From the NCBI RefSeq assembly GCF_001898575.1, contig NZ_MKUD01000045.1:265382-329381 (forward strand): a stretch of DNA of 64,000 bases, in the 5' to 3' direction. Under the pieces are notes generated by a model. The model was not told the origin of the DNA. It saw nothing but the letters and a program-made list of their open reading frames with translations, and did no database searches. Source of the stretch: Spirosoma sp. 48-14. GTDB taxonomy: Bacteria > Bacteroidota > Bacteroidia > Cytophagales > Spirosomataceae. The translations under genes and the position numbers were made by a program. The stretch's first letter is position 1; the number at the start of each line of letters is the position of its first letter. Positions 297-39,805 of this stretch are shown piece by piece.

Positions 297-2924
297 ATGA
301 ACCATTACACCATTGATTTTCAACATATAGACAGAACAAAGCTCAACGTTGTCGGGGGCAAAGGGGCTAACCTGGGAGAGTTGTCTCGGATGCCGGGCAT
401 AAACGTACCCGCAGGCTTTTGCATAACGACGGAAGCCTATAACGAGCTTGTGGCACAGAACGAAACTGCCCATTCACTGCTCAGCCAACTGGCGCTTCTA
501 TCCATCGACAAGCGGAATGAGATCAGTGCACTCAGCGCCCAACTCCGCGCGGCTATTGAAGCCATTCCCATTCCCCAGGCTCTGGCCGGAGCGATTACGG
601 AACACCTCAAAACGTATGGTGAACAGGAGGCTTATGCGGTACGGTCCAGCGCCACCGCCGAGGATTTGCCTACCGCTTCCTTTGCCGGTCAGCAGGATAC
701 GTATCTTAATATCATTGGTGCGGAAGCCATTCTACGGCATATGAGTAAATGCTGGGCATCGCTGTTCACCGAGCGGGCCGTAACCTACCGCATTCAGCAT
801 GGCTTCGACCACCGCAACATCCGGCTGGCGGTGGTGGTTCAGAAGATGGTTTTTCCGCAGACAGCGGGCATTCTGTTTACGGCCGATCCGGTTTCGGGTA
901 ATCGTAAGATCGTATCCATCGACGCCAGTTTCGGACTTGGTGAAGCCTTGGTCGCGGGTCTGGTCAATGCTGATACGTATAAAGTGCGTAATGGCGAAGT
1001 GATCGAGAAAAAAATCCCGGCTAAGAAACTGGCTATTTATGCTGCCGAAAAGGGGGGCACAATCGAAAAAGCCGTTGAAGCAGAGCAACAATACCAGTCA
1101 GCGCTAACGGACGAGCAGGTTTTGCAGTTAGAACGCATCGGCCGTACAGTTGAAGCCCATTTCGGCCAGTCGCAGGACATCGAATGGTGTCTAGTAGACC
1201 AGTCGGTTTACGTTGTCCAGAGTCGGCCCATCACGACTTTGTTTCCCCTCCCGGAAGTGGCTGATAAAGCCCCCCATGTGTATGTATCGGTTGGACACCA
1301 GCAAATGATGACCGATGCCATGAAGCCGTTAGGCATAGCTATGTGGCAACTGACGGCGGGCCGACCGATGCCCACGGCGGGTGGACGGATTTTCGTGGAT
1401 GTGGCCGATGATCTGGCATCGCCTGTCAAACGACACATGCTGGTTAATGTATTAGGCAAATCGGACCCGCTTATCAGAGACGCGTTTATGACCCTGCTGG
1501 AGCGTGGCGATTTCATCAAATCGGTGCCAGAGCAGCCGGAAGCGGTTCCAGCCCAAAGTCCTCCAGGCCCACCGCCCGTCGATTACCAAACCCTGGCCGA
1601 CTACGATCCGGCTATTGTTTCGGAATTGATCGGTCGCAGTGAAACAGCCATAGCGGAACTAAAACAGGCGATTCAATCAAAATCGGGCACAGACCTGATC
1701 GATTTTATTCAGGAAACAACCCAACAGTCGAAACGAGGTGCGGCTGATTCGCAAAGTTTCGGGGTTATCATGACAGGCATGAACGCGGCCTCCTGGCTCA
1801 ACGAACATATGGAGATGTGGTTGGGTGAAAAAGCCGTAGCCGACACACTGACGCAATCGGTGCCGAACAATATCACATCCGAAATGGGACTGGCCTTGCT
1901 GGATGTGGCCGATGCCATTCGCCCTTATCCTGACGTAATTGCCTATTTACAACGGGGTAACCTTGCGCAGGAACAAGACGCTCATTTCCTGGATGAGCTG
2001 GCTACGGTGGCCGGTGGACCAGAAGCCCGTAACGCCATCAACATTTTTCTGACCAGATACGGCATGCGATGTGCCGGAGAAATCGACATTACGAGACCCC
2101 GATGGAGCGAAAAACCGGCTACGCTTATCCCGCTGATTCTAAGCAACATCAAAAACTTTGAACCGGGCGAAAGTAGTCGGCGGTTTGAGCGGGGGTTGCG
2201 GGAAGCGATGGCCAAAAAACAGGAGATTCTGGCCCGGCTGAAGCAATTACCGGATGGCGACGAGAAAGTGAACGAAACGAGCCGCATGATCGACCTGGTT
2301 CGTAACCTGGCCGGGTATCGGGAGTATCCTAAATACGGCATCGTCAGTCGCTATTTCGTTTTTAAACAGGCGCTGTTAAAAGAAGCCGGGCGACTCGTGC
2401 AGGCGGGCGTTCTTCACGAAAAAGAAGACCTGTTTTACCTCAGATTGGACGAACTCCGCGAAGTCATCCGCACCCATACGCTGGGCTATGACCTGATCAA
2501 TCAGCGAAAAGACGACTACAAACGCTTTGAAAAACTAACACCTCCACGGGTGATGACATCCGACGGTGAAATCATTACGGGTCAGTACAAACGCGACAAT
2601 CTCCCGGCCGATGCTATTGTCGGATTACCCGTTTCGGCGGGCGTGATTGAGGGACGGGCGCGGGTCATTCTGAAGATGGAAGATGCCGAGCTGGAAGAAG
2701 GCGATATTCTCGTCACGCCCTTTACCGACCCGAGCTGGACACCCCTGTTTGTCGCCATCAAAGGGCTGGTTACTGAAGTCGGTGGCCTGATGACCCACGG
2801 AGCCGTTATAGCCCGTGAGTATGGCTTACCCGCCGTTGTGGGCATCGATCAGGCAACGAAGTTGATCAAAGATGAGCAACGAATCCGGCTAAACGGCACC
2901 GAGGGGTATATTGAAATCCTGTAA
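297..2924 (+). CDS. rph: Rifamycin-inactivating phosphotransferase-like PEP-synthase family protein
   Basis: N-term VVGGKGANLGELSRMPGINVPAGFCITTEAYN, AVRSSATAEDLPTASFAGQQDTYLNIIG, VAHQQMMTDAMKPLG-like VGHQQMMTDAMKPLG, and C-term swivelling-His motif GGLMTHGAVIAREYGLPAVVG. Start set at internal Met (297). Confidence 0.85.
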   Translation: MNHYTIDFQHIDRTKLNVVGGKGANLGELSRMPGINVPAGFCITTEAYNELVAQNETAHSLLSQLALLSIDKRNEISALSAQLRAAIEAIPIPQALAGAITEHLKTYGEQEAYAVRSSATAEDLPTASFAGQQDTYLNIIGAEAILRHMSKCWASLFTERAVTYRIQHGFDHRNIRLAVVVQKMVFPQTAGILFTADPVSGNRKIVSIDASFGLGEALVAGLVNADTYKVRNGEVIEKKIPAKKLAIYAAEKGGTIEKAVEAEQQYQSALTDEQVLQLERIGRTVEAHFGQSQDIEWCLVDQSVYVVQSRPITTLFPLPEVADKAPHVYVSVGHQQMMTDAMKPLGIAMWQLTAGRPMPTAGGRIFVDVADDLASPVKRHMLVNVLGKSDPLIRDAFMTLLERGDFIKSVPEQPEAVPAQSPPGPPPVDYQTLADYDPAIVSELIGRSETAIAELKQAIQSKSGTDLIDFIQETTQQSKRGAADSQSFGVIMTGMNAASWLNEHMEMWLGEKAVADTLTQSVPNNITSEMGLALLDVADAIRPYPDVIAYLQRGNLAQEQDAHFLDELATVAGGPEARNAINIFLTRYGMRCAGEIDITRPRWSEKPATLIPLILSNIKNFEPGESSRRFERGLREAMAKKQEILARLKQLPDGDEKVNETSRMIDLVRNLAGYREYPKYGIVSRYFVFKQALLKEAGRLVQAGVLHEKEDLFYLRLDELREVIRTHTLGYDLINQRKDDYKRFEKLTPPRVMTSDGEIITGQYKRDNLPADAIVGLPVSAGVIEGRARVILKMEDAELEEGDILVTPFTDPSWTPLFVAIKGLVTEVGGLMTHGAVIAREYGLPAVVGIDQATKLIKDEQRIRLNGTEGYIEIL

Positions 2925-2985
2925 GCCGGAGAGGGTATAAGTCTTTTTGAAAGCTGAACCTGTTTTAATTTTTTTGCGATAGACG

Positions 2986-3072
2986 TTTTTGTCATTGCGA
3001 CGCAGGAGCAATCTTCGGACACTCATAAAAGCTACTATTCCGAAGATTGCTCCTGCGTCGCAATGACAAAAA
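2986..3072. repeat. Long perfect inverted repeat (34-bp arms) forming an intergenic hairpin
   Basis: tttttgtcattgcgacgcaggagcaatcttcgga (2986-3019) is the exact reverse complement of 3039-3072. Confidence 0.9.
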
Positions 3073-3311
3073 ACACACTTGCTGTAGCCCAGTTTCAGAA
3101 AGTTAATCCAGGTTCGCTGTTAAAACCTTCCATAATCAAATCATAATGAATGTTTTTATCTTCCCGGCGGACCGGTCGGGATGAAAAAAAGACATTGATA
3201 AAACGTTTCTCCCATTTAGCCTGCTTTTGCAGCTTCTTATCCAAAAACGCGTCCTTGTATCGTGTCATTGGCTGGTAACGGCTGATAATACGATACAACG
3301 AATCGTCAATC

Positions 3312-5066
3312 ATGCGAATAATCCGTAAACGCCTTCTTTACCTCTCGCTTCTGTTTTTATCGTCCTTCATCAGCATTGCCCAACAAACAGTCAGCACAAA
3401 AGCCAATGACGCAACCAGCCCATACGACATTCAGGATAACGTATTGATTACTACCCAGGATGGAGCCAGCATATCGGCAATGGTTGTCCGAAAGAAAGGC
3501 GTAACCGAGCCCCTGCCCGTCGTCCTACAGTTTACGATTTATGTACGGGATAAAGGACGAGACATGAAGTCGTTGAAAGAGTCGGCCGACCGGGGGTATG
3601 TGGGCGTCATTGCCTATACCCGCGGAAAACGGTTTAGTCCCAACGCCATCTATCCGTATGAACATGAAGCAACCGACACCTACGACGTAATCGACTGGAT
3701 TAGCCGACAGCCCTGGTGCAACGGCAGCGTCGGTATGTTTGGCGGCAGCTATAACGGTTTCTCGCAATGGGCAGCCTGCAAAAAACTACACCCTGCCCTT
3801 AAAACCATCGTACCGTATGTAGCCAACCGGCCGGGCATGGGGTTGCCGATGGAGAACAACGTATTCGTCAATCCTAATTACGAATGGTCGTTCTATGTAG
3901 GCAACAACAAATACCTCGACACCCTGGTCGGCAATGACCGGAAGCGGTTCCGAAAAATGATGTTCGACTGGTGGCAAAGTGGTGTGGCTTACAACAGGAT
4001 GGATAGCCTCGACGGAACGCCCAACAAGTGGTTTCAGCGCTGGATCAGCCACCCCAACTTCGACCGCTACTGGCAGAAAATGGCACCCTACGAACGTGAT
4101 TTTGCCAGCATAAACATCCCCATTCTGGCTTTCGACGGCTACTATAACGACTCCCAGAATTCGAGTCTGTATTACCTGCGGGAGCTTCAGAAGTATGCCC
4201 CCCAAACACCCTGTTACCTGGTCATTGGTCCTTACGGCCATTTTGGAACACAGATTGGTGGCGAGCGCGTAATCAATGGCTATTCGGTCGATTCGGTTGC
4301 GTTGTTCGACATCAAAAAAATAACCTATCAGTGGTTCGACCACATCCTGAAACAGGGACCAAAGCCTGAAATGCTGGCCGATAAAATCAATTACGAAGTG
4401 ATGGGTGCCAATAGCTGGCGTAGTGCGCCTTCGCTCGACAAGATGCACAATGCCTACTTAACCTTTTACCTGACCGACCAGAAAACAGGCGATTTTTATG
4501 CCTTACGCCCTACGAAGCCCGCTAAAACAGGCTATTTGTCGCAGCAGGTTGATTTCGCAGACCGGCAAACCAGCACTAACAACTACTACCCCGACCCCAT
4601 TTCGCGGAAAGAGATCGACACCAGCAATGGGTTTGTTTTCATCAGCGAACCGTTGTCGGAGTCGATGCTCATCAATGGCTCCTTTCTGGCCCAACTGAAT
4701 ATCAGCATCAACAAAAAGGATGTAGACCTTGGCGTTACACTTTACGAACTGACTCCGGCTGGCGATTACTTTCACCTGTCGTATTACATCGGTCGGGCGA
4801 GTTATGCAAACGACATCACCAAACGAACCTTGCTGACACCTAATGCCCAAACGACCATTGACGTATCAAACACGCACCTGGTCAGTAAACAACTGAGCAA
4901 AGGCAGTCGGCTGGTGGTGGCGATCAACGTCAACAAAAATCCCTTTTCGCAACTGAACTATGGGACCGGCAACGACGTAAGCACGGAGTCCATACACGAT
5001 GCCAAAGAGCCGCTACGAATAAACTGGTACACGAACAGCTACATCCGCATACCAGTCTGGCGATGA
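3312..5066 (+). CDS. CocE/NonD family hydrolase (X-Pro dipeptidyl-peptidase-like), secreted
   Basis: Signal peptide MRIIRKRLLYLSLLFLSSFISIAQ; nucleophile motif GMFGGSYNGFSQW; C-terminal jelly-roll region. Confidence 0.85.
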   Translation: MRIIRKRLLYLSLLFLSSFISIAQQTVSTKANDATSPYDIQDNVLITTQDGASISAMVVRKKGVTEPLPVVLQFTIYVRDKGRDMKSLKESADRGYVGVIAYTRGKRFSPNAIYPYEHEATDTYDVIDWISRQPWCNGSVGMFGGSYNGFSQWAACKKLHPALKTIVPYVANRPGMGLPMENNVFVNPNYEWSFYVGNNKYLDTLVGNDRKRFRKMMFDWWQSGVAYNRMDSLDGTPNKWFQRWISHPNFDRYWQKMAPYERDFASINIPILAFDGYYNDSQNSSLYYLRELQKYAPQTPCYLVIGPYGHFGTQIGGERVINGYSVDSVALFDIKKITYQWFDHILKQGPKPEMLADKINYEVMGANSWRSAPSLDKMHNAYLTFYLTDQKTGDFYALRPTKPAKTGYLSQQVDFADRQTSTNNYYPDPISRKEIDTSNGFVFISEPLSESMLINGSFLAQLNISINKKDVDLGVTLYELTPAGDYFHLSYYIGRASYANDITKRTLLTPNAQTTIDVSNTHLVSKQLSKGSRLVVAINVNKNPFSQLNYGTGNDVSTESIHDAKEPLRINWYTNSYIRIPVWR

Positions 5067-5090
5067 TGTTCGTCTGCGCGAATGGCGACT

Positions 5091-6518
5091 TTACCGCCAC
5101 CCGCCACCCAAAGATCGGTAGACGTCGACCATGGCACTAAGCCGCTGTCGTTTGATATCGGCTACGGCCAGCTCGGCCTGAAGGGCATTGCTCTGGGCCG
5201 TGATGACTTCCAGATAGGTTGCCATTCCACTTTTGAACAGTAGTTTGGCATTGTTGATGGCCCCCTGCAAGGTTTGGGCACGTGCCGTGGCAATCCGTTC
5301 CTGCTCCTGTACTTTCTCGTGCCGCACCAGCGCGTTCGATACGTCGGTGACGGCCGTATTCAAACTCTGCCGAAACTGAACCAATGCGGCCTCCCGCTGA
5401 ATCTGACTCACTTCCAGTTGGGTTCGAAGCTGACGACGCTGGAATATGGGTTGTACCAGACCAGCCGCCAGGTTATAGAACAGGGAGTTGGGTAGTGCAA
5501 ACCAGTTGCTGGCCTGAAAGGAATTTAGACCAGCACTACCGGTGATAGTCAGAGCGGGATACAGACTCGCTTCGGCCACACCAGCCCGGGCATTGGCAGC
5601 CACCAGGCTCAATTCACTCACCCGAACATCGGGTCGGTTGGCCAGCAACTGGGCCGGTACGCCCGTCAGCAACGTATCCGCCACCGGGTAGGTGGCGAGT
5701 CGGCTGCTACGGGCAATGGTGCCGGGCCAGTCGCCCAGTAGTTGCCGGATTCCGTTCTGTTCAATCGCCAGCGCCTGTTCCAGCTGCGACCGAAGCAGAT
5801 CGGCATTCTGACGCTGGGCTTCGGCCTGTTGCACCGCCAATTCGGTTACGTCGCCCGACTGTTTCTGAAGTCGGATCAGCCGCACAATGGAATCCCCCAG
5901 GGCAACGTTCCGCTTTGCAATCTCCAGTTGAGCGTCGAGCAGCAAGACGTTGAAGTAGCCCGTTGCTACGCTGGCTACCAGATTCGTACGCACCGCTTTG
6001 GCCGCTTCTTCGGTTTGCAGGAATTGGGCCCGTGTGGCTTCATTCTGCCGCCGGATGCGTCCCCAGATGTCGGCCTCCCAGGATAACGCCAGGTTGGCCG
6101 AGTAGTCTTCCAGATGCCGGGTACCAATAAAATTTTCCAGGCTCAGACCGTTCAGGCTGTTACGCGAGGGCGTAACGGTCGATGCAGCTACTTGCCCGTT
6201 GACGGCAGGTAACAGCGCATAGCGTGTCTGCCGAACATAGGCCTGATTTTCCTCGATTCGTTTGATAGCTACCTGTAAATCGAAGTTGTTCGTCAGCGCC
6301 GTGCTGATCAGGTTCTGCAAGTCGGTATCCCGAAAAAACTGCCGCCAAGGCATCAGCGCTACGCTGGACGTGTCGACCAATGGGCGCTCTGCGTATTGTT
6401 CCGGTAGCTGAACGGTCGGGCGTCGGTAGTTCTGCCCTACTTTACAGCCCGAAACGAGCAGGGTAAGTATGAGTATGCCAATGAAAAGGCGAGACGACGA
6501 AAAATAAGGTCGTGTCAT
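5091..6518 (-). CDS. RND efflux outer membrane lipoprotein (NodT/TolC family)
   Basis: Lipobox LLVSGC, KVGQNYRRPTVQLPEQY, SWEADIWGRIRRQNEATRAQ; adjacent to RND pump. Confidence 0.93.
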   Translation of the reverse strand: MTRPYFSSSRLFIGILILTLLVSGCKVGQNYRRPTVQLPEQYAERPLVDTSSVALMPWRQFFRDTDLQNLISTALTNNFDLQVAIKRIEENQAYVRQTRYALLPAVNGQVAASTVTPSRNSLNGLSLENFIGTRHLEDYSANLALSWEADIWGRIRRQNEATRAQFLQTEEAAKAVRTNLVASVATGYFNVLLLDAQLEIAKRNVALGDSIVRLIRLQKQSGDVTELAVQQAEAQRQNADLLRSQLEQALAIEQNGIRQLLGDWPGTIARSSRLATYPVADTLLTGVPAQLLANRPDVRVSELSLVAANARAGVAEASLYPALTITGSAGLNSFQASNWFALPNSLFYNLAAGLVQPIFQRRQLRTQLEVSQIQREAALVQFRQSLNTAVTDVSNALVRHEKVQEQERIATARAQTLQGAINNAKLLFKSGMATYLEVITAQSNALQAELAVADIKRQRLSAMVDVYRSLGGGWR

Positions 6519-6521
6519 GAT

Positions 6522-9500
6522 TTAATTACGAGTTATGGGGTGGCTGGCGAAGGCTTCTTCGGCCAGCGCTTTGCGTTCTTCGGGCGTTTTAGGCCGTTTG
6601 ATCTTCTCCTGAATCCCCTGAAAAATGACAAACAGCACAGGAATGATAAACAGCCCCAGCAGAACGCCGGTCAGCATTCCCCCCGCCGTACCGATGCTAA
6701 TTGAGTGATTTCCCTTGGCCGATGCGCCCGTGGCTCCCATCAGCGGAATCAGACCGACGATAAACGCAAACGAAGTCATCAGAATCGGGCGTAGCCGTAG
6801 CCGGGCCGCATCGAGCGCCGATGCCAGCAGACCCATCCCCGCCTGTCGGCGCTGGGTGGCGTATTCAACAATCAGAATCGCATTTTTCGCCAGCAACCCA
6901 ATAAGCATAATCAGACCGACCTGCACGTAAATGTTGTTGTCGATACCTGCCAGATTGATAAACAGGAACACGCCCAGAATCCCCGTCGGAATGGAGAGCA
7001 GCACCGCCCAGGGCAATACGTAGCTTTCGTACTGAGCCGCCAGCAGAAAATAGACAAAGACCAGGCTAAGCCCGAAAATCAGACTCGACTGACCACCAGC
7101 CGCAATTTCTTCCCGCGTCATGCCCGTCCACTCGTAGGTGTAGCCCACGGGTAGTTTGGTCTTCGCCACTTCCTCCACCGCCCGGATGGCATCGCCCGTG
7201 CTGTAGCCCGGCTTAGCCTGTCCGTTGATGGCCACCGAAGTGAAGAGGTTGTTACGGGTGATGGCTTCGGGTCCGTATACGCGTTTCAACCTAGCCACCG
7301 TCGTCATGGGGACCATCTGACCAACGGAGTTTTTCACGTAAATACTGTTCAGCGACGCCGGATCGGCCCGATACGGCGCGTCGGCCTGGGCAATAACGCG
7401 GTAGAATTTACCAAATCGGTTGAAGTCCGACGCGAACGAACTACCGTAGTATACCTGCATCGTTTGCAGAATATCATTGGTCGAAATGCCGAGCTGCTTG
7501 GCTTTCTTCACGTCCAGTTCCAGTTCGAACTGGGGCGTCTGCGTGTCGAAGGTCGTGAAAGCAGCTGCGATTTCGGGGCGTTTTTGCAGTTCTTCGATGA
7601 AGGCATTGGCCGTCGCGCTGAGCTTGTCGAGCTTACCGCCAGTCCGATCCTGCAACAGCAATTCAAACCCATCCACGTTACTGAAACCCGGCACCGTAGG
7701 CATGGTAAACACATCGACCCGGCCTTCTTCCACACCCGCTACCTGCCTGCTCACCGTATCGACCACCTGCTGCAACTCTTTCACGGCACCCCGCTCTTCA
7801 TACGGTTTCATCTTGACGAATCCGGCCGCATAGGACGGACTTGCCGAGTTGGCGATCATGTTGAATCCGCTGATTTCAATATGCTGCTCAACGGCCTGCG
7901 TTTTGTGCAGAATCCCTTCAATTTTATCGGCCACTTTCTGCGTTCGCTGTAGGGATGCCCCCGCCGGAAGCTTCAGCGAATACGCGATGAACCCCTGATC
8001 TTCGGAAGGAATAAAACCCGTAGGCGTGGTCCGCATCAGGAAAACGGTTAGGGCCGTTACCAGCGCCAATCCGCTTAACCCAACCCATTTATTCTGAATC
8101 AGAAACCGCAGGCTACCCACGTATTTGTTTGTCAGCGATGCAAAACCCGCGTTGAAGGCATCGAAGAAGCGGTTCAGAAATCCTTTTTTCGGATGATGCG
8201 TATCGTCGCCATGCGGATTTTTCAGCAGTAGGGCGCATAAAGCCGGACTCAGCGTTAGCGCATTGACCGCCGAAATCAGAATGGCGATGGCTAGCGTGAA
8301 TGCAAACTGCTGGTAGAAAACCCCTGCCGGACCGTTCATAAACCCGACTGGCACGAACACGGCGGCCATGACCAGCGTAATAGAGACGATAGCTCCCGAA
8401 ATTTCCTGCATGGACTGGAGCGTGGCCGACCGGGCCGACTGCCGACTCTTTTCCATTTTGGCGTGAACCGCTTCAACCACGACAATCGCATCATCGACCA
8501 CAATCCCAATGGCCAGCACCAGCGCGAAGAGCGTCAGCAGGTTGATCGTAAAGCCGAACAGTTGCATGAAAAAGAACGTACCGATAATGGCCACCGGCAC
8601 CGCAATGGCCGGAATGAGCGTTGAACGGAAGTCCTGCAAAAACAGAAACACCACGATGAACACCAGAATAAACGCTTCGATCAGTGTGTGCGTCACCTGG
8701 TCGATGGATTCGTCCAGAAACGTTTTGGTGCTATAGCCAATGGTGTAGTTGATCCCTTTAGGAAACGCCCCGGCGGCTTTGTCCATGATTGCCAGAATAG
8801 CCACCTGGATGTCGTTGGCATTCGATCCCGCCATCTGGTTGATGGCGATTCCGACACTGGGTTTCCCATTCACCCTGGTATCACCACTGTACGTAAACGA
8901 CCCAAATTCAATCCGTGCTACGTCCTTGAGCTGCACCATCGACCCATCGGCGTTGGCTTTCAGGATAATGTTTTCGTACTGCTCCGGCTGGTTGAGTTTA
9001 CCCTTGTATTTAATGACGTACTCAAAAGCTTCCTCACTTTTCTCCCCGATTTTACCGGGGGCTGCTTCCAGATTCTGCTCCCGAATGGCGCCAATAACCT
9101 CCTGGGGCGACAAACCGAGCGCCACCAGCCGATCTGGCTTTAGCCAGATTCGCATGGAGTAATCCTTCACACCGAAGACCATCACCTGCCCTACCCCATT
9201 CACCCGCTGTAACTCTGGAATCAGGTTAATTTTGGCATAGTTCTGCAAAAACGTTTCGTCATAAACGGCCGCATTGCTGTTCAGGTTGAGGATCATGATC
9301 ATGCTGTTCTGCTGTTTCTGCGTCGAAATACCAGCCTGAATCACTTCGGTAGGCAGCAGACTCGTCGCTTTGGCAACCCGGTTCTGCACGTTTACAGCAG
9401 CCAGGTCGGGGTTGGTGCCCAGCTTGAAATAAATGTTGATCGCCACCGACCCATCGTTACCCGACGACGACGTCATATAGGTCATGTTTTCGACCCCGTT

Positions 9501-9769: not shown

Positions 9770-10939
9770 TTACAGTGAACGACTGACCAGACTATCGCTG
9801 GCAATCAGTCGGGGCGTGATAGCATCGCCATCGCGAAGTCGATCGATTCCCTCCCGCACAATGCGCTCGCCCGGCCGAATCCCGTTGTCGATCAGGTAGA
9901 AATTGCCGCTCTTCCCGGCAATCTGGAGCGGTTTGCTCACCACCTTGTTACTGTCGGCAACGGCAAACACAAACACACGGTCCTGCCGCTCGAAGGTTGC
10001 TTCCTGTGGTACGACCACCGCCGACGGGTGTTGCTCGGGAATGCGGACACGACCCGTAATGCCCGACCGCAGAAGACCCTGCGCATTCGGAAACACGGCG
10101 CGGAAGCTAATGGCCCCCATCGTTTTGTCGAACTGCCCGGATACCATTTCGATCCGGCCTTTCTGTCCGTAGGCTTTGCCGTCGGCCAGCACCAGCTCAA
10201 CCGGGGGCAACTTCCGAATCTTATCGGCCAGACTTCCGCCCGCAGCCTGCCGGGTAAACCGCAGGAAATCAACTTCGCCCATCGAGAAATACGCGTAGAT
10301 GTCGTGAACATCCGACACCGTCGTCAGGGGCAGCGCTTCCGAACGCCCTACCAGGCTCCCCGCTTTATAGGGCAACCGACCAATAAACCCACTGGCTGGC
10401 GACGTAATGAGTGTGCGGTTCAGGTTAACATTGGCGTTCCCCACCATCGAGCGGGCCTGTTCGACATTGGCTTTCGCAGCCGCATAGGCCGACTGCGCGG
10501 CTTTGAGCTGCACATCCGACACAACGTTGTTTTCGACCAGGGGGGTCAGCCGGGCCACTTCCAGCGCGGCTTTATCCAGATTAGCCTTGGCCGCCAGTAA
10601 GGTGGCATCGGCATTGCCAACCTGCTGCTGGTAGGTGCGGGTATCGATGCGGAACAGAGGCTGGCCTTTCCGAACGGCAGCACCTTCATCGACGTATATT
10701 TTTTCCAGATACCCTTCCACCTGTGGCCGGATATCGACATTAACGCGCCCTTCCAGCGTAGCCGAAAATTCCTGATACGTCGTTACCGAGGCCGTTCTGA
10801 CCTGCACGACTGGCAGGGTCGGAATCTGCGTGGGAGCTGACGTTTCATTCGTTGAGGAACCACAACCAAACTGGCTCATAACCAGTATCAACGCCAGATA
10901 ACGCGACGATTGCTTGTGGATAGTTTTAGTAACTTTCAT
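9770..10939 (-). CDS. RND efflux periplasmic adaptor (MexA/AcrA-like membrane fusion protein)
   Basis: Lipobox QFGC; VRTASVTTYQEFSATLEGRVNVDIRPQVEGYLEKIYVDEGAAVRKGQPLFRID; first gene of the efflux operon. Confidence 0.95.
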   Translation of the reverse strand: MKVTKTIHKQSSRYLALILVMSQFGCGSSTNETSAPTQIPTLPVVQVRTASVTTYQEFSATLEGRVNVDIRPQVEGYLEKIYVDEGAAVRKGQPLFRIDTRTYQQQVGNADATLLAAKANLDKAALEVARLTPLVENNVVSDVQLKAAQSAYAAAKANVEQARSMVGNANVNLNRTLITSPASGFIGRLPYKAGSLVGRSEALPLTTVSDVHDIYAYFSMGEVDFLRFTRQAAGGSLADKIRKLPPVELVLADGKAYGQKGRIEMVSGQFDKTMGAISFRAVFPNAQGLLRSGITGRVRIPEQHPSAVVVPQEATFERQDRVFVFAVADSNKVVSKPLQIAGKSGNFYLIDNGIRPGERIVREGIDRLRDGDAITPRLIASDSLVSRSL

Positions 10940-30944: not shown

Positions 30945-30986
30945 AGCGGCTAATGCTCCCGGCTTTAGCCGGGGGATACAGCCGCT
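30945..30986. repeat. IS left-end hairpin
   Basis: agcggct-aatg-ctcccggc-ttta-gccggggg-atac-agccgct; overlaps the tnpA stop codon. Confidence 0.75.
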
Positions 30987-31383
30987 AATTGTTTTTCTGG
31001 TCCTGAATATACCGTTTGATGGTTTCTTCTGAGATATGCCCAACCGATTCAGCATAATACGAACGAGTCCACAAGGTAGGCAATCTGGTACGAAGGCTGA
31101 TATATTCCTGCCTGAGTATTCGGCTTGTATAGCCCTTGATTTGTCCGGCAATGTTGTGTACGCTATCGATTGGCCGGGCCTCTACAAACAAATGTACATG
31201 GTCTGGCATCACTTCCATTTCATGTACCGTCAACCCCATCGCAAACGCTTTTTCCATAATCAGTTCTTTGAGCCTGACTTCAATGTCTGGTATCAGCACC
31301 TTGCGCCGGTATTTGGTACACCAAATAATATGATACTTGAGATTGTGGACAACGTGCGACGAATAAGAATATCTGTCTGCCAT
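30985..31383 (-). CDS. tnpA: IS200/IS605 family transposase TnpA (Y1 HUH)
   Basis: HNLKYHIIWCTKYRRKVL; HUH motif DHVHLFVEARP; catalytic-Tyr region WTRSYYAESVG. Confidence 0.95.
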   Translation of the reverse strand: MADRYSYSSHVVHNLKYHIIWCTKYRRKVLIPDIEVRLKELIMEKAFAMGLTVHEMEVMPDHVHLFVEARPIDSVHNIAGQIKGYTSRILRQEYISLRTRLPTLWTRSYYAESVGHISEETIKRYIQDQKNN

Positions 31384-31434: not shown

Positions 31435-32586
31435 ATGATTCAGGTCAAGACATACCGTTACAAACTGGCCCCTAATTTGTCCCAACAGAGGGCATTAGGC
31501 CAATGGCTTGGTGCGTGTCGATACGTCTATAACCTGTCGTTGTCCTACAAAAAGACCTTATGGGAGCAATATAAAATCAGTATTGGCAAGAACGACATTC
31601 AGAAAGAGTTAGCAAGCATTGCTAAAGATACCGACTGGTTAGGCTGTGTGCATTCTCAAGTGTTGCAGGAAGTCACTGACCGCGTATTCAATGCGTTTGA
31701 TGGTTTCTTTAACCGGGCCGCCGGGCGGCCGGGCAAGGGCTTTCCAAAGTTCGCCCGGAAGGGTCAATATCAGTCGTTTAGCTTTAAACAGGGCGTTAAA
31801 ATCAACAATACCCATGTACAGTTGCCCAAATTCGGCAAGATAAAATACCGCAACAGTCGAGATTGCACGGGAACAATAAAACGGGCAACGGTTCGTGAAT
31901 GTGCTGACGGTTGGTATGTGTGTCTGTGTGTAGAAACGGACATTGAATCACTACCTATCAATCAGAACAGCATTGGTATTGATGTAGGTATCAAATCGCT
32001 TCTTGTTACTTCAGACGGCGAAACGATTGATAACCCCAAACATCTCTACAAAGCGGAGAAAAAGTTAAAGAGACTACAACGAAGCGTTAGCCGCAAAAAG
32101 AAGGGCAGTGCTAACAGGAAGAAAGCGGTAAAAAAGTTAGCGCGTCAGCATCAGAAAGTAGCCAATACCCGGAACGATTTTCAGCATAAAGTAACGACTC
32201 GGCTCATTCGTGAAAACCAAGCGATTGCCTGTGAATCGTTGCAGATTCAAAATATGTTAGCCAATCACAATCTGGCAAAGTCCATCTCGGATGCTGGTTG
32301 GTATAGCCTAACCCAAATGCTTGAGTATAAAGCGAAATGGTATGGTCGAACGTTTGAGAAAGTGTCTGCCCGGCATACTTCGCAAGACTGTTCAGCGTGT
32401 GGCTACCGTAATACCGAACTAACGCTTGCGGTTAGGTTGTGGACGTGTCCGAGTTGTGGCAATATCCACGACCGTGACCAGAATGCGGCCCAGAATATCA
32501 AGAAAAAGGCGGTAGGGCATACCGTGTCAGCTTGGGAAGTATACACGCCGGTTGCGGTGGTAGCCCAAGAATCTCCCGGGCTTTAG
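31435..32586 (+). CDS. tnpB: TnpB family RNA-guided endonuclease (OrfB)
   Basis: RYKLAPNLSQQRALGQWLGACRYVYNLSL; RuvC IGIDVGIKSLLVTSDG, IACESLQIQNM, zinc finger CSACGYRN...CPSCGNIHDRDQNAAQNI. Confidence 0.95.
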   Translation: MIQVKTYRYKLAPNLSQQRALGQWLGACRYVYNLSLSYKKTLWEQYKISIGKNDIQKELASIAKDTDWLGCVHSQVLQEVTDRVFNAFDGFFNRAAGRPGKGFPKFARKGQYQSFSFKQGVKINNTHVQLPKFGKIKYRNSRDCTGTIKRATVRECADGWYVCLCVETDIESLPINQNSIGIDVGIKSLLVTSDGETIDNPKHLYKAEKKLKRLQRSVSRKKKGSANRKKAVKKLARQHQKVANTRNDFQHKVTTRLIRENQAIACESLQIQNMLANHNLAKSISDAGWYSLTQMLEYKAKWYGRTFEKVSARHTSQDCSACGYRNTELTLAVRLWTCPSCGNIHDRDQNAAQNIKKKAVGHTVSAWEVYTPVAVVAQESPGL

Positions 32587-35395: not shown

Positions 35396-36964
35396 TTAAA
35401 ACCTTCGGACCGCCACCGGAGCCAGTGTATTGCTTTTAAATACTTGTTTTCCGTTCGAAAGGACTATGAATCCCTTGCCTTTTCCGTAATGCTTCCCGGT
35501 TTTGTCGTACAGAATAGTCAGTATCTTTCCGTGATACAATACGTTGTCCAGACAAAACCAGTCCCATTTGCCCTCAGGAATGAGGGGATGAATTTCCAGA
35601 ACGTTATCTGAACGGGGCTTGAGACCGATCAAATCGTTGATGATCAGATCAGCAAAGCCCGAATGGTTATAGAATTTACTCCGTGGATTGTCGCCTTTCA
35701 ACCATTCTCCGGTCTTCTCGTCCTGATACTCACCCAGATAAATCGCTCCGTTCATTGTATGGGAGCGAGCATATTTCAGCAGTTCATCGTAAAACCCCGA
35801 CTTGTTCATGCGCCCCTGATTTTTATAATCCGTCAGCAGGTTCGACAGTCCTTTCAGCGTTTGTGTAGTCGCAAATGGCCACACCGCCCCATCCCATTCG
35901 CAGCCATGCCCCGACCCATGCGTACGAAATCCTGGATGCCTGCGTTCAGCGGTCGTAATTCCCCAGGGAGCGTCGAAGCCACTTGTATCCGTTAGCTGAT
36001 CCCATTGTCGGGCATAGTCCGATGTATCGTCGGGTAAATTAAAATACCAGGGAATAAAGCCAATGGCCTCACGTGCGTTAGCAAAAGCCCCATTCGGATA
36101 CCTGACCTCGAAAAAATGAGCTTCTTTATTCCACAGGCTATCGAGCGTCAGCTTTTTCAGTTCAGTGGCCTGTTGCTCATACCGACGCTGAAGCGTATCG
36201 TTTTTAACCAGAGCGGCCATGGCTGCCAGAGCTTTGGCATTGCCATACATGTAGCTGTTGATGGTTGGGCGACGATTTTTGTCTTTCCGCGAGCCACTGA
36301 TGGATTCTTCCATCGCATCGCGCACATCGAACTGCCAGAACAGGCCGCTGGGCAACTGTTTTTCCTGCTGCCATTTCCGATAATCGGCATCGAGTGTCAG
36401 CAGGTTTTTCTGAACAAACGGCTTGTCGAGGTTGACCAGATAACGTTTATACACTGCATCATCGACCCAGCTGCTGAATGCGTGAAACCGCTGCACTGTA
36501 TGTTTAGGGTCGACGTACAACCAGAACGAAATATAGTCATCGATGTATTCCGGCGTATGTAGCCAGCGCCCTTCGTAAATATGATGACCAAGGGCGCTGC
36601 TGATGGCATTATACTTTCCCGCATGGTTCATCTTGGTGATGAACTCTGTGAAAATGAACCCTTCCGGTGTTTCTTTCAGGTGCTTCCGAAACGCCCACCA
36701 ACGATAATAGTAGATCGTATTCAGGGCTGAGTCCGGGCAGTCGAACAGGGGGATATTTTTCGACAGCCACTCAAACGACTGATCGTTGGGCACGTAATTT
36801 TTGACAGCCTCCTCCTGATCGACTGTGTTGAAATAGTTGACGTATTGCTTCAGTTTATGAGTTGTCAGCACTTTAGCCGACTGAGCCTCCGCCCAATTGG
36901 CAGTCAGACAGGTCAGTAGCCATAAACAAGGTACGATTAAACAACGTTTATGGAGTGAGTTCAT
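35396..36964 (-). CDS. MGH1-like/GH63-type (alpha/alpha)6 glycoside hydrolase, secreted
   Basis: NTIYYYRWWAFRKHLKETPEGFIFTEF, YMYGNAKALAAMAAL, GHGCEWDGAVWPFATTQTLKGL. Confidence 0.78.
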   Translation of the reverse strand: MNSLHKRCLIVPCLWLLTCLTANWAEAQSAKVLTTHKLKQYVNYFNTVDQEEAVKNYVPNDQSFEWLSKNIPLFDCPDSALNTIYYYRWWAFRKHLKETPEGFIFTEFITKMNHAGKYNAISSALGHHIYEGRWLHTPEYIDDYISFWLYVDPKHTVQRFHAFSSWVDDAVYKRYLVNLDKPFVQKNLLTLDADYRKWQQEKQLPSGLFWQFDVRDAMEESISGSRKDKNRRPTINSYMYGNAKALAAMAALVKNDTLQRRYEQQATELKKLTLDSLWNKEAHFFEVRYPNGAFANAREAIGFIPWYFNLPDDTSDYARQWDQLTDTSGFDAPWGITTAERRHPGFRTHGSGHGCEWDGAVWPFATTQTLKGLSNLLTDYKNQGRMNKSGFYDELLKYARSHTMNGAIYLGEYQDEKTGEWLKGDNPRSKFYNHSGFADLIINDLIGLKPRSDNVLEIHPLIPEGKWDWFCLDNVLYHGKILTILYDKTGKHYGKGKGFIVLSNGKQVFKSNTLAPVAVRRF

Positions 36965-37250
36965 GCACTATAAAGCATATCGAAACGGGCCGTATCGGAA
37001 GAAAATTCAAAATTAATTAGAATAAACCGCTACGGAATATGCTATTTTCACAAGCCATTATAGGATGTTAGCGTGTTTGAGAAACGCATGAGCGAACAGT
37101 TCGTCTGCAATTGTATCGCGGATAGGCAATGGACTAAAGAGAGTTGGAGTCTTAAAAACATATTTTTATTAAGCCGTAAATTAGTTTACAATAAAATTTA
37201 CAGTTTATCAAATTTTGACAATACGATCATTAATGGGACTGTAATGCGTC

Positions 37251-39164
37251 ATGAATAAAGTGGAAATAATAGTAAATATTGCTCTTACCGAAGAATATGA
37301 TAAACCAGCTACTATTGACTTGATCAATAAATATAAAGCTAACTGTATCGAACTTGCTAATGCTGTCATTGATGATCTTGATAATCATGAAGAATTAGAT
37401 CCTTCGATTAAAAAAATTATCATTACTGATAATTACGAAACGGCTGTACAAGAGCAAGCTAATCTATGGAATCTCAGGACATATTATCATACTATAGGCA
37501 GAGGTTATCGCGGTGTTGGTAAAGTCGTCTATAATGAGCAAGAAAATAGACCAGAACGTTATATTTTTATTCCTAGCCACCTAGGAACCGAACAAATTTT
37601 CCCACTTGTTCTATACGGACTTGCCCTTGAGGTTTATTCAACGAGTATATTACCCAAACGGCTTCAATCTATCCGATTAATTAACCTCCCTTGGACTTTT
37701 CATAGCCATATAGAAGCTACTTTGCCAAGGTGGATTAAAACCTATTGGACACGCAGCAAAATTGCGGAGCGATTTGATCGTGAATTATTCGTTTATCGAT
37801 CACCCGACGACTGCTACTCTGCTTTCTCACGTGATCTCAAAAAATTCCTTTTTGAGTATAATTGCTATATAGGTGACGGACAATCAGATAATACGCAAAG
37901 AATAGGTATATTTTGGGAGAAGCTTTTCATGTCAACCGAATTCTTAATTGCAGGATTATTAGAAGCGGCTCCTTACTATGATGGTGATTTACCATTTACA
38001 AATCCCGAGATTGCTCCCATTTTGAATAATATTGTTATAGAAGCAAAAATTCTTACTCAGGCTATATCACATCAAGAGCCATACTCAATTGAAAAGCTCA
38101 AATTAGGTCTACACGAATTCTATAAGCAACTCGGTATAAATATTATAGAGCATCCTTCTGCTATTGAAATTCGTCTGGTAAAGAATCCAAAACGTTACCC
38201 CAAGAGTGATATAGTAGATGTGGAGCCACGTTTCGTCTGCTTCATGGATATTCTTGGCTTTTCGGCAATGGTTGATGAGTACGACCAAGATTCATCATCT
38301 AATGTCCTTCAGAAACTTCAAACTGCTTTCAAAGAAGCTCTCCTAGTATTAACCTCGTATTCACAGTTTCAGAACATAGATGAAGATGAATCGGAAATTG
38401 AACATTTAGAATATCGCGTTTTCTCAGATTGCATTTGTATATCACTACCTTATTTTGACAATGAAGTCAATTACACTACGAATCTAACGCTGCTACTCAC
38501 CTATGCACGAGGACTTCAAACCGCCTTAATGACCAAGGGGGTATTTACACGCGGTGGAATTGCATCTGGCCCATATTATATGGATGATAACATTTTGTTT
38601 TCTAAGGCAATGATCCGAGCATATATTATTGAAAGTAAAGAGGCTATTTATCCAAGAATTGTACTTGATAAAGCTATCATTGAGAAATTAAGTACTTACT
38701 CAGCTACATCGCTATATCTTCAATCAGTCTTAGCCTTACTAGCTAAAGACACTAGTGGCATTATATTTCTCAATCCGTTCAATTCTTCACAGAACTCTGT
38801 TAATCAGTTTAAGCATTCAATGGATAGTATTCAGACTTCACTAAATAATATCGCTGATATAGATGACGGATTTTCCAAAATAGAAGATAGTGTCATCCAA
38901 AATATAAGGGACTGGAGCCTTTCTCTTGTTGAGAATAATATTGATACTGAAGCTGACAAAATGCTTAATGAAGTTATACGAAGAGAAATACAACACCAGC
39001 GTTGGAGGTTAGAAATCCAAAAAAGTGAAGTATCTGTTGATTCTAATGCTTTTAAAAACATTGAAAAATCTTTATCGAAATACAATTGGTTAGAAAGTTT
39101 TATGAATTGGGCTACTGGCACATCTTTGACCAATTCTGCCGAATTTGAGTATTGCAAATTTTAG
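37251..39164 (+). CDS. Unknown 637-aa protein with C-terminal nucleotide-cyclase-like (Pycsar-cyclase-like) domain
   Basis: Residues ~328-500: RFVCFMDILGFSAMVDEY ... YRVFSDCICISLPYF ... GVFTRGGIASGPYYMDDNILFSKAMIRAYIIESKEAIYPRIVLDKAII. Metal-ligand-like Asp at D333 and D393. Visibly AT-rich gene. Confidence 0.7.
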   Translation: MNKVEIIVNIALTEEYDKPATIDLINKYKANCIELANAVIDDLDNHEELDPSIKKIIITDNYETAVQEQANLWNLRTYYHTIGRGYRGVGKVVYNEQENRPERYIFIPSHLGTEQIFPLVLYGLALEVYSTSILPKRLQSIRLINLPWTFHSHIEATLPRWIKTYWTRSKIAERFDRELFVYRSPDDCYSAFSRDLKKFLFEYNCYIGDGQSDNTQRIGIFWEKLFMSTEFLIAGLLEAAPYYDGDLPFTNPEIAPILNNIVIEAKILTQAISHQEPYSIEKLKLGLHEFYKQLGINIIEHPSAIEIRLVKNPKRYPKSDIVDVEPRFVCFMDILGFSAMVDEYDQDSSSNVLQKLQTAFKEALLVLTSYSQFQNIDEDESEIEHLEYRVFSDCICISLPYFDNEVNYTTNLTLLLTYARGLQTALMTKGVFTRGGIASGPYYMDDNILFSKAMIRAYIIESKEAIYPRIVLDKAIIEKLSTYSATSLYLQSVLALLAKDTSGIIFLNPFNSSQNSVNQFKHSMDSIQTSLNNIADIDDGFSKIEDSVIQNIRDWSLSLVENNIDTEADKMLNEVIRREIQHQRWRLEIQKSEVSVDSNAFKNIEKSLSKYNWLESFMNWATGTSLTNSAEFEYCKF

Positions 39165-39292
39165 AAGGCAAAACACTCGTCAGCGACGTAAAACAAACTA
39201 TTAAGCGGCCTTAAAGGTATTTTTTGCGTCATAGACCCGGACCTCAGACATCCGCGATTCAATCGCGGACAAGCTGAAGAGCAGTTTATAGT

Positions 39293-39805
39293 TTATATCT
39301 GCGGGTCCTGCTCGTAGATAGTCCACAACTGCGCTTGCGATGCAGATTTTTTAGCCAGTATAATTCGGGAGTTAACAGACCCTTTACTATCGACGGGCGT
39401 GATGTACAGGTCTGACCCTTTGAGTTTGATACGATAGGTGTCTTTTCCGGCGGAGATAAATTCATATTCCTGGTTGTCCTGTGAAGACACCAGCGGCTGC
39501 TGTTCCAGGTTAGCTCCCTCACATACCTTCCCGCTTTCAGGCTGCAACGTTTTGCTGGTGAACAAATTACGGAGTTGATAGGTATCGCCCTCTACATGCA
39601 CGAAATCCCAGGTAACGCATTTCCAATTCACGGGCGAATAGGCAACGATGGGCGTTCCATCTGCTTTTCGGGCATCCTGAACCCGCAACAACTACCCAGT
39701 CTGAACATTTTTGATAGCATAGTGCCCCCGAATTGACGGCGGAAAGGCACTACCAAGACCCATATACAGGTCGATCAGAAGCAGGAAAATGAGTTTGTTT
39801 TTCAT
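39293..39805 (-). pseudogene. Ricin-type lectin-like small secreted protein interrupted by an in-frame TAG
   Basis: Minus strand: MKNKLIFLLLIDLYMGLGSAFPPSIRGHYAIKNVQTG*LLRVQDARKADGTPIVAYSPVNWKCVTWDF...; TAG at 39692-39694, same frame on both sides. Confidence 0.6.

Follow-up and report, generated by a model that had tools for sequence, protein, structure and literature searches.

What does the 637-aa gene do that lies between a glycoside hydrolase gene and a lectin gene in the window (the whole 64,000-nucleotide stretch of the Spirosoma sp. 48-14 contig that was analysed), and is it a Pycsar-type cyclase gene left behind without its effector? An earlier note on this DNA had described an AT-rich gene fusing an N-terminal module that it could not assign to a Pycsar-like cyclase domain. 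The length and coordinates given there for the plus-strand frame are exact, and all motifs read from the translation were found again (D333, D393, TRGGIASG with R434-G440, SKAMIRAYIIESKEAIYPRIVL, and K610-YNWLESFMNW). The GC content of the ORF is 0.355 versus 0.489 in the remaining window, with a GC3 of 0.287 versus 0.562 in the adjoining glycoside hydrolase gene, and no stretch of that length anywhere in the window is lower in GC. The flanking genes encode an MGH1-like glycoside hydrolase (35396-36964) and a ricin-type lectin (39293-39691), and both lie on the minus strand, not on the plus strand as the note had it. As noted before, there is no TIR or TM effector gene nearby. Sequence searches with all 637 residues gave no match in Pfam, NCBIfam, PADLOC, or the PDB. 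The features discussed below are compiled in Table 1.

Table 1. Positions in the window of the fusion gene, its domains and conserved residues, and the boundaries of the insert.
Feature	Position	Strand	Remark
Gene of 637 aa, N-terminal domain plus class III cyclase-like domain	37251..39164	+	homologues L022, L023/L048, L137
Inserted segment of ~2.17 kb, holds the 637-aa gene alone	37084..39250		flanks continuous in related genomes
Degenerate palindromic repeat, 5' edge of insert	37104..37124		3 mismatches to consensus
Palindromic repeat TCCGCGATTCAATCGCGGACA, 3' edge of insert	39251..39271		exact match to consensus
N-terminal domain, residues 1-319, no known family	37251..38207	+	low-confidence model: strands, then helices
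Class III nucleotidyl cyclase-like catalytic core, residues ~320-513	38208..38790	+	AlphaFold, Foldseek, HHalign
D333, first metal-binding Asp (Me1), FMDILGF	38247..38249	+	D in 60/61 homologues
D393, second metal-binding Asp (Me2), VFSDCICIS	38427..38429	+	D in 61/62
RGGIASG strand, R434-G440	38550..38570	+	R434 in 62/64
Helix FSKAMIRAYIIES, residues 450-462	38598..38636	+	counterpart of canonical VNxAxR helix
C-terminal K-x-x-W element, K610 and W613, family hallmark	39078..39110	+	K 61/63, W 54/62

The C-terminal half of the protein is confidently modelled with a class III nucleotidyl cyclase fold. The AlphaFold alignment comprised the full-length Dyadobacter homologue and 22 short relatives, the full-length proteins from Spirosoma linguale and from genome G953 being left out of the AlphaFold alignments. 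In the resulting model, the catalytic core had pLDDT values of mostly 80-97; D333 ends the first strand, and D393 lies within the hairpin joining two strands. The top Foldseek matches to this domain in the PDB were all class III cyclases (E 7e-5 to 5e-4, prob 1.00), with soluble guanylate cyclase 8hbe as the best (E 6.8e-5) and 3et6, 2wz1, and CyaC 1wc1 among the others; PaPycC 6yii was also matched (E 3.9e-4). In agreement, the family profile (64 sequences) was aligned by HHalign with 27 canonical class III domains of the same order at P 1.4e-6 (probability 90). In this alignment, D333 (Me1) and D393 (Me2; canonical GD) fall on the two metal Asp, and RGGI coincides with the RxGI strand. The cyclase-type domain with a metal-Asp pair that the earlier note had read was borne out by all three methods. 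Chance does not explain the motifs, since D333, D393, and R434 hardly vary among over 60 homologues; other near-fixed columns of the homologue alignment are A457 (60/64), E461 (60/64), and P468 (61/64). Matches of the C-domain profile to a designed repeat protein in the PDB were judged spurious, and nothing else was matched in that search.

The canonical transition-state Asn and Arg are replaced by I455 and I459 in helix FSKAMIRAYIIES. Across the family, Asn was found in 2/64 and Arg in 6/64 sequences at these positions; each is present in 25/25 aligned canonical class III domains. Cyclisation is therefore only predicted. Y458, E461, and R469 are candidates for a role in place of the two lost residues. 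The Pfam model Guanylate_cyc did not match the 637-aa protein, and the best relative remained under the cut-off (E 0.021). The near-complete loss of these two residues would fit a pseudo-cyclase that has lost catalysis and serves as a nucleotide sensor gating the N-terminal domain. This is a real rival, which we nevertheless regard as unlikely, as R434 and the two metal Asp hardly vary, in contrast to usual pseudoenzymes. Moreover, the loss is no proof of inactivity, because cyclases linked to PycTM genes mostly replace the Arg as well, commonly by Lys.

The N-terminal module proved as unassignable as the earlier note had found it. It had no match in the PDB, Pfam, NCBIfam, or PADLOC, its pLDDT values in the AlphaFold models were mostly below 60, and a model built from a two-row alignment (mean pLDDT 55.8) gave no significant Foldseek match. 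Several candidates were discarded: PDB matches of the N-domain profile to CD80 and similar proteins were spurious; a degenerate zinc-peptidase-like fold of residues 1-130, suspected from the order of strands and helices, was supported by no tool result; and weak matches in G1047, G1195, G1028, and G984 were to kinases, a sensor, and a sigma factor and were attributed to chance. Genome searches revealed no N-domain without the cyclase-like domain; it was seen solely as a fusion. The N-domains, at 20-25% identity, keep I53, I56, I57, D60, K91, F106, W161, A191, F192, R194, Y203, F221, and W222 invariant and are for this reason under selection.

Comparison with related genomes defined the insert. 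In G004, the flanks of which are 91% identical, blastn matches stop at 37083 and resume at 39251, the two flanks lying 20 bp apart; the site is empty in G021 too, again with 20 bp between the flanks, and G034 has about 104 bp there. In G032 (contig C1, L124:1521-2763), a different single gene of 326 aa (GC 0.295) occupies the same intergenic site; its product has no PDB match, and its distant relatives are hypothetical proteins on plasmids. A REP-like palindrome, TCCGCGATNNNATCGCGGAC, brackets the insertion in the window (37104-37124 and 39249-39271). The repeat at the 3' edge, TCCGCGATTCAATCGCGGACA, has 3 matches in the window versus 0.02 expected, and genome-wide there are 25 matches versus 1 for a control (both strands counted, mostly self-palindromic sites); repeats of this type are found at about 13 genomic sites, and the empty site of G004 keeps one such copy. 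The different gene in G032 suggests that the intergenic site holding the insert is a recurrent insertion site. About 5 kb upstream of the insertion there is an IS200/IS605-like pair (30985-31383, minus strand, and 31435-32586, plus strand), identified by eye from the translations only as Y1-type transposase-like and TnpB-like ORFs.

The fusion of the N-domain with the cyclase-like domain was found in four genomes from three genera, and in 3/223 genomes of the host family. Apart from the window, full-length copies are present on the mobilizable plasmid pSLIN01 of S. linguale (Slin_6686), which belongs to the same genus, in Dyadobacter sp. CY326, and in G953, a member of another family of the class. 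All four genes are AT-rich versus their surroundings. The gene spreads by itself, in an AT-rich cassette that has entered plasmids, islands, and an intergenic repeat site. In the phylogenetic tree, the four full-length proteins group with the short relative L024 with good support (100/99); this is consistent with one fusion and one loss, although the tree allows one to two changes.

No neighbouring gene is conserved across the four full-length loci, and none of them has an effector gene, either PycTM or PycTIR, beside the fusion. VapBC, XRE, and YoeB were rejected as partners, each adjoining one copy only. Downstream of the S. linguale copy lie genes for a PIN toxin, a UvrD helicase, and a methyltransferase. 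The G953 copy adjoins a CBASS operon (CD-NTase 2e-160, E2 2e-34, 4TM effector 6e-65) and a type II R-M pair, and genes resembling those of tyrosine recombinases lie a few kb off; this copy is the only one of the four next to named complete defence systems, and the window copy has none. This island (L143, G953:C22:60000-79500) comprises 1550-7633 and 9959-10903 and contains two CD-NTase-type genes. Directly upstream of the G953 fusion lies a 314-aa gene that matched nothing and has a possible PD-(D/E)xK motif.

An orphan relic, that is a Pycsar cyclase that has lost the gene for its cognate effector, would account for the class III fold, for PaPycC among the Foldseek matches, and for a short relative followed by a TIR gene (L037). 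It is nevertheless very improbable: the gene is undamaged and the only one in an insertion with defined ends, and four full-length homologues in different contexts all do without an effector. The suggestion that the gene had been left over from a defence island is likewise unlikely for this copy, which was cleanly inserted as one gene at an intergenic site that is conserved otherwise; the three other full-length homologues lack an effector as well. A direct comparison with Pycsar used 25 loci from genomes with short PycTM genes, in nine of which a cyclase adjoined PycTM (in one case with one transposase gene between). These nine cyclases matched the canonical class III model with E values of 2.8e-4 to 2.3e-14, and with the model of the 637-aa protein's family they gave either no match or E values above 0.2. 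HHalign returned P 0.013 for the family versus the PycTM-linked profile and 2.5e-21 for the PycTM-linked versus the canonical profile, a further point against a relic of Pycsar. The grouping was judged on the PycTM-linked cyclases rather than on experimentally characterised PycC sequences.

The survey of homologue neighbourhoods for TIR or TM effectors, which had also been proposed, gave one locus with a TIR partner among 69 loci of the wider family. In this locus (L037:7143-8925, G044), a TIR-domain gene starts ~80 bp after a short cyclase-like gene. Its product matched PADLOC TIR-TM (5.9e-75) and, weakly, Pfam CAP12-PCTIR, and no cyclic-nucleotide-binding domain was found in it; the pair is possibly Pycsar-like with a different receptor.

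Residues 324-550 of the C-domain match PHROG 23933 (3.7e-26), and all 24 aligned members of this PHROG match. Relatives of this type are mostly ~250 aa long. They were found on 35 plasmid records from Pseudomonadota, Bacillota, Bdellovibrionota, and Bacteroidota, at 34 viral-contig loci in the short form, and in about 4-5% of the genomes sampled from the order and phylum. At least four phyla are represented among the phages, plasmids, and islands that carry the wider family. Short-pattern searches of IMG/VR and GTDB had at first yielded no close relatives. Neither Pfam, NCBIfam, PADLOC, nor PHROGs gives a function for the wider family, and literature searches on it found nothing. Among the 69 distinct loci there is no general partner gene: an operon-like neighbour is absent from 19, a gene with an FRG domain accompanies one, and some short relatives adjoin restriction, R-M, or methylase genes. 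Two recurrent pairs were observed. At five loci in as many genomes of one lineage (L026, L027, L029, L030, L036), the short cyclase-like gene has a one-base overlap with a Beta_protein (PF14350)-type gene, making the two a candidate two-gene system. At three prophage loci on viral contigs (L079:496-2297, L082:4952-6708, L085:4930-6645), a ParA-type ATPase gene lies directly upstream of or overlaps the short cyclase-like gene, which is another candidate for such a system.

Short relatives stand singly among prophage structural genes or beside plasmid repABC genes, as would be expected if the gene were selfish or accessory to the phage or plasmid and had no role in defence, acting for example in lysogeny or plasmid regulation. 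We consider such a role quite improbable for the 637-aa protein, given full-length copies on chromosomes and a plasmid, one of them in a defence island. Lone cargo genes at such prophage sites are, moreover, often immunity genes.

We favour, tentatively and with slightly less than even confidence, the explanation that a single mobile gene encodes a signalling protein, most likely directed against phages or plasmids, in which a cyclase domain is combined with an N-domain acting as effector or sensor. A head-to-tail homodimer would probably bind an NTP and two metal ions via D333 and D393 and make a cyclic mononucleotide or a related product upon activation by infection. The messenger, or the nucleotide-bound state of the cyclase, would then most likely act via the fused ~320-aa N-domain as effector, as no effector gene accompanies the fusion in four genomes. 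Alternatively, the N-domain may be the sensor that triggers the cyclase domain; the data do not separate the two roles.

A cyclic nucleotide could also act via a receptor encoded elsewhere in the host genome, and a PycTM-domain protein is indeed encoded in a 445-aa frame on the same contig (G000:C45:215975-216307). PycTM-domain proteins occur in 83/218 genomes of the phylum, whereas the fusion gene is rare, and a mobile gene would be less likely to rely on one host receptor; we therefore judge a separate host receptor to be rather unlikely.

Cyclic-nucleotide immunity has so far been described mainly as a synthase with a separate effector. Within the favoured reading, a bolder version is conceivable, if on the doubtful side: a one-gene nucleotide-signalling immune system with messenger synthase and effector or sensor in one polypeptide, representing an unrecognised, widespread branch of cyclase-like defence proteins distinct from Pycsar, CBASS, Thoeris, and Panoptes. 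Its product may be non-canonical, because the transition-state residues are replaced. A mobile family with a conserved cyclase-like metal site but without a general partner, and with a large fused domain in this case, would either carry the logic of synthase and effector over into one polypeptide chain or show the cyclase fold in a new role, and one function found would annotate many genes of the wider family. The most interesting aspect of the locus is this unrecognised wider family together with the partnerless fused architecture.

Among known families, PHROG 23933, a phage protein family of unknown function, covers the cyclase-like domain of the 637-aa protein, but its profile is short (240 positions), lacks the N-terminal domain, and has no recorded function. 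Class III adenylate/guanylate cyclases (PF00211) share the fold, the two metal Asp, and the RxGI strand with the 637-aa protein, which differs from them in having neither a Pfam match nor the transition-state Asn and Arg. OptS/mCpol of Panoptes has a related palm/ferredoxin-like fold with a metal-Asp pair (PMC12657218); its fold match to the 637-aa protein is only weak (9pd0, Foldseek E 0.068), and no OptE-like partner is conserved in the full-length loci, where the gene is single. The class III fold and both metal Asp are common to the Pycsar PycC enzymes. An aromatic residue precedes Me1 by two positions in AnPycC (F60) and EaPycC (F100), and the residue two before Me2 is polar (K104 and Q144, respectively; PMC11224242). 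The 637-aa protein has F331 two before Me1, a position at which many ordinary class III cyclases also have an aromatic residue, but F391 two before Me2. The location of one homologue in a defence island was taken as a further likeness; the missing PycTM or PycTIR partner is a further difference. Since the PycTM-linked cyclases are unmatched by the family model, with the HHalign value given above and F391 pointing the same way, the protein was not filed as Pycsar. The Pycsar label of the earlier note is thus not supported: the domain falls outside the PycTM-linked cyclases, and the absence of an effector is the rule in the family and not the state of a relic. Judged by its sequence, the 637-aa protein shares a superfamily with the Pycsar cyclases and is not a member of Pycsar itself.
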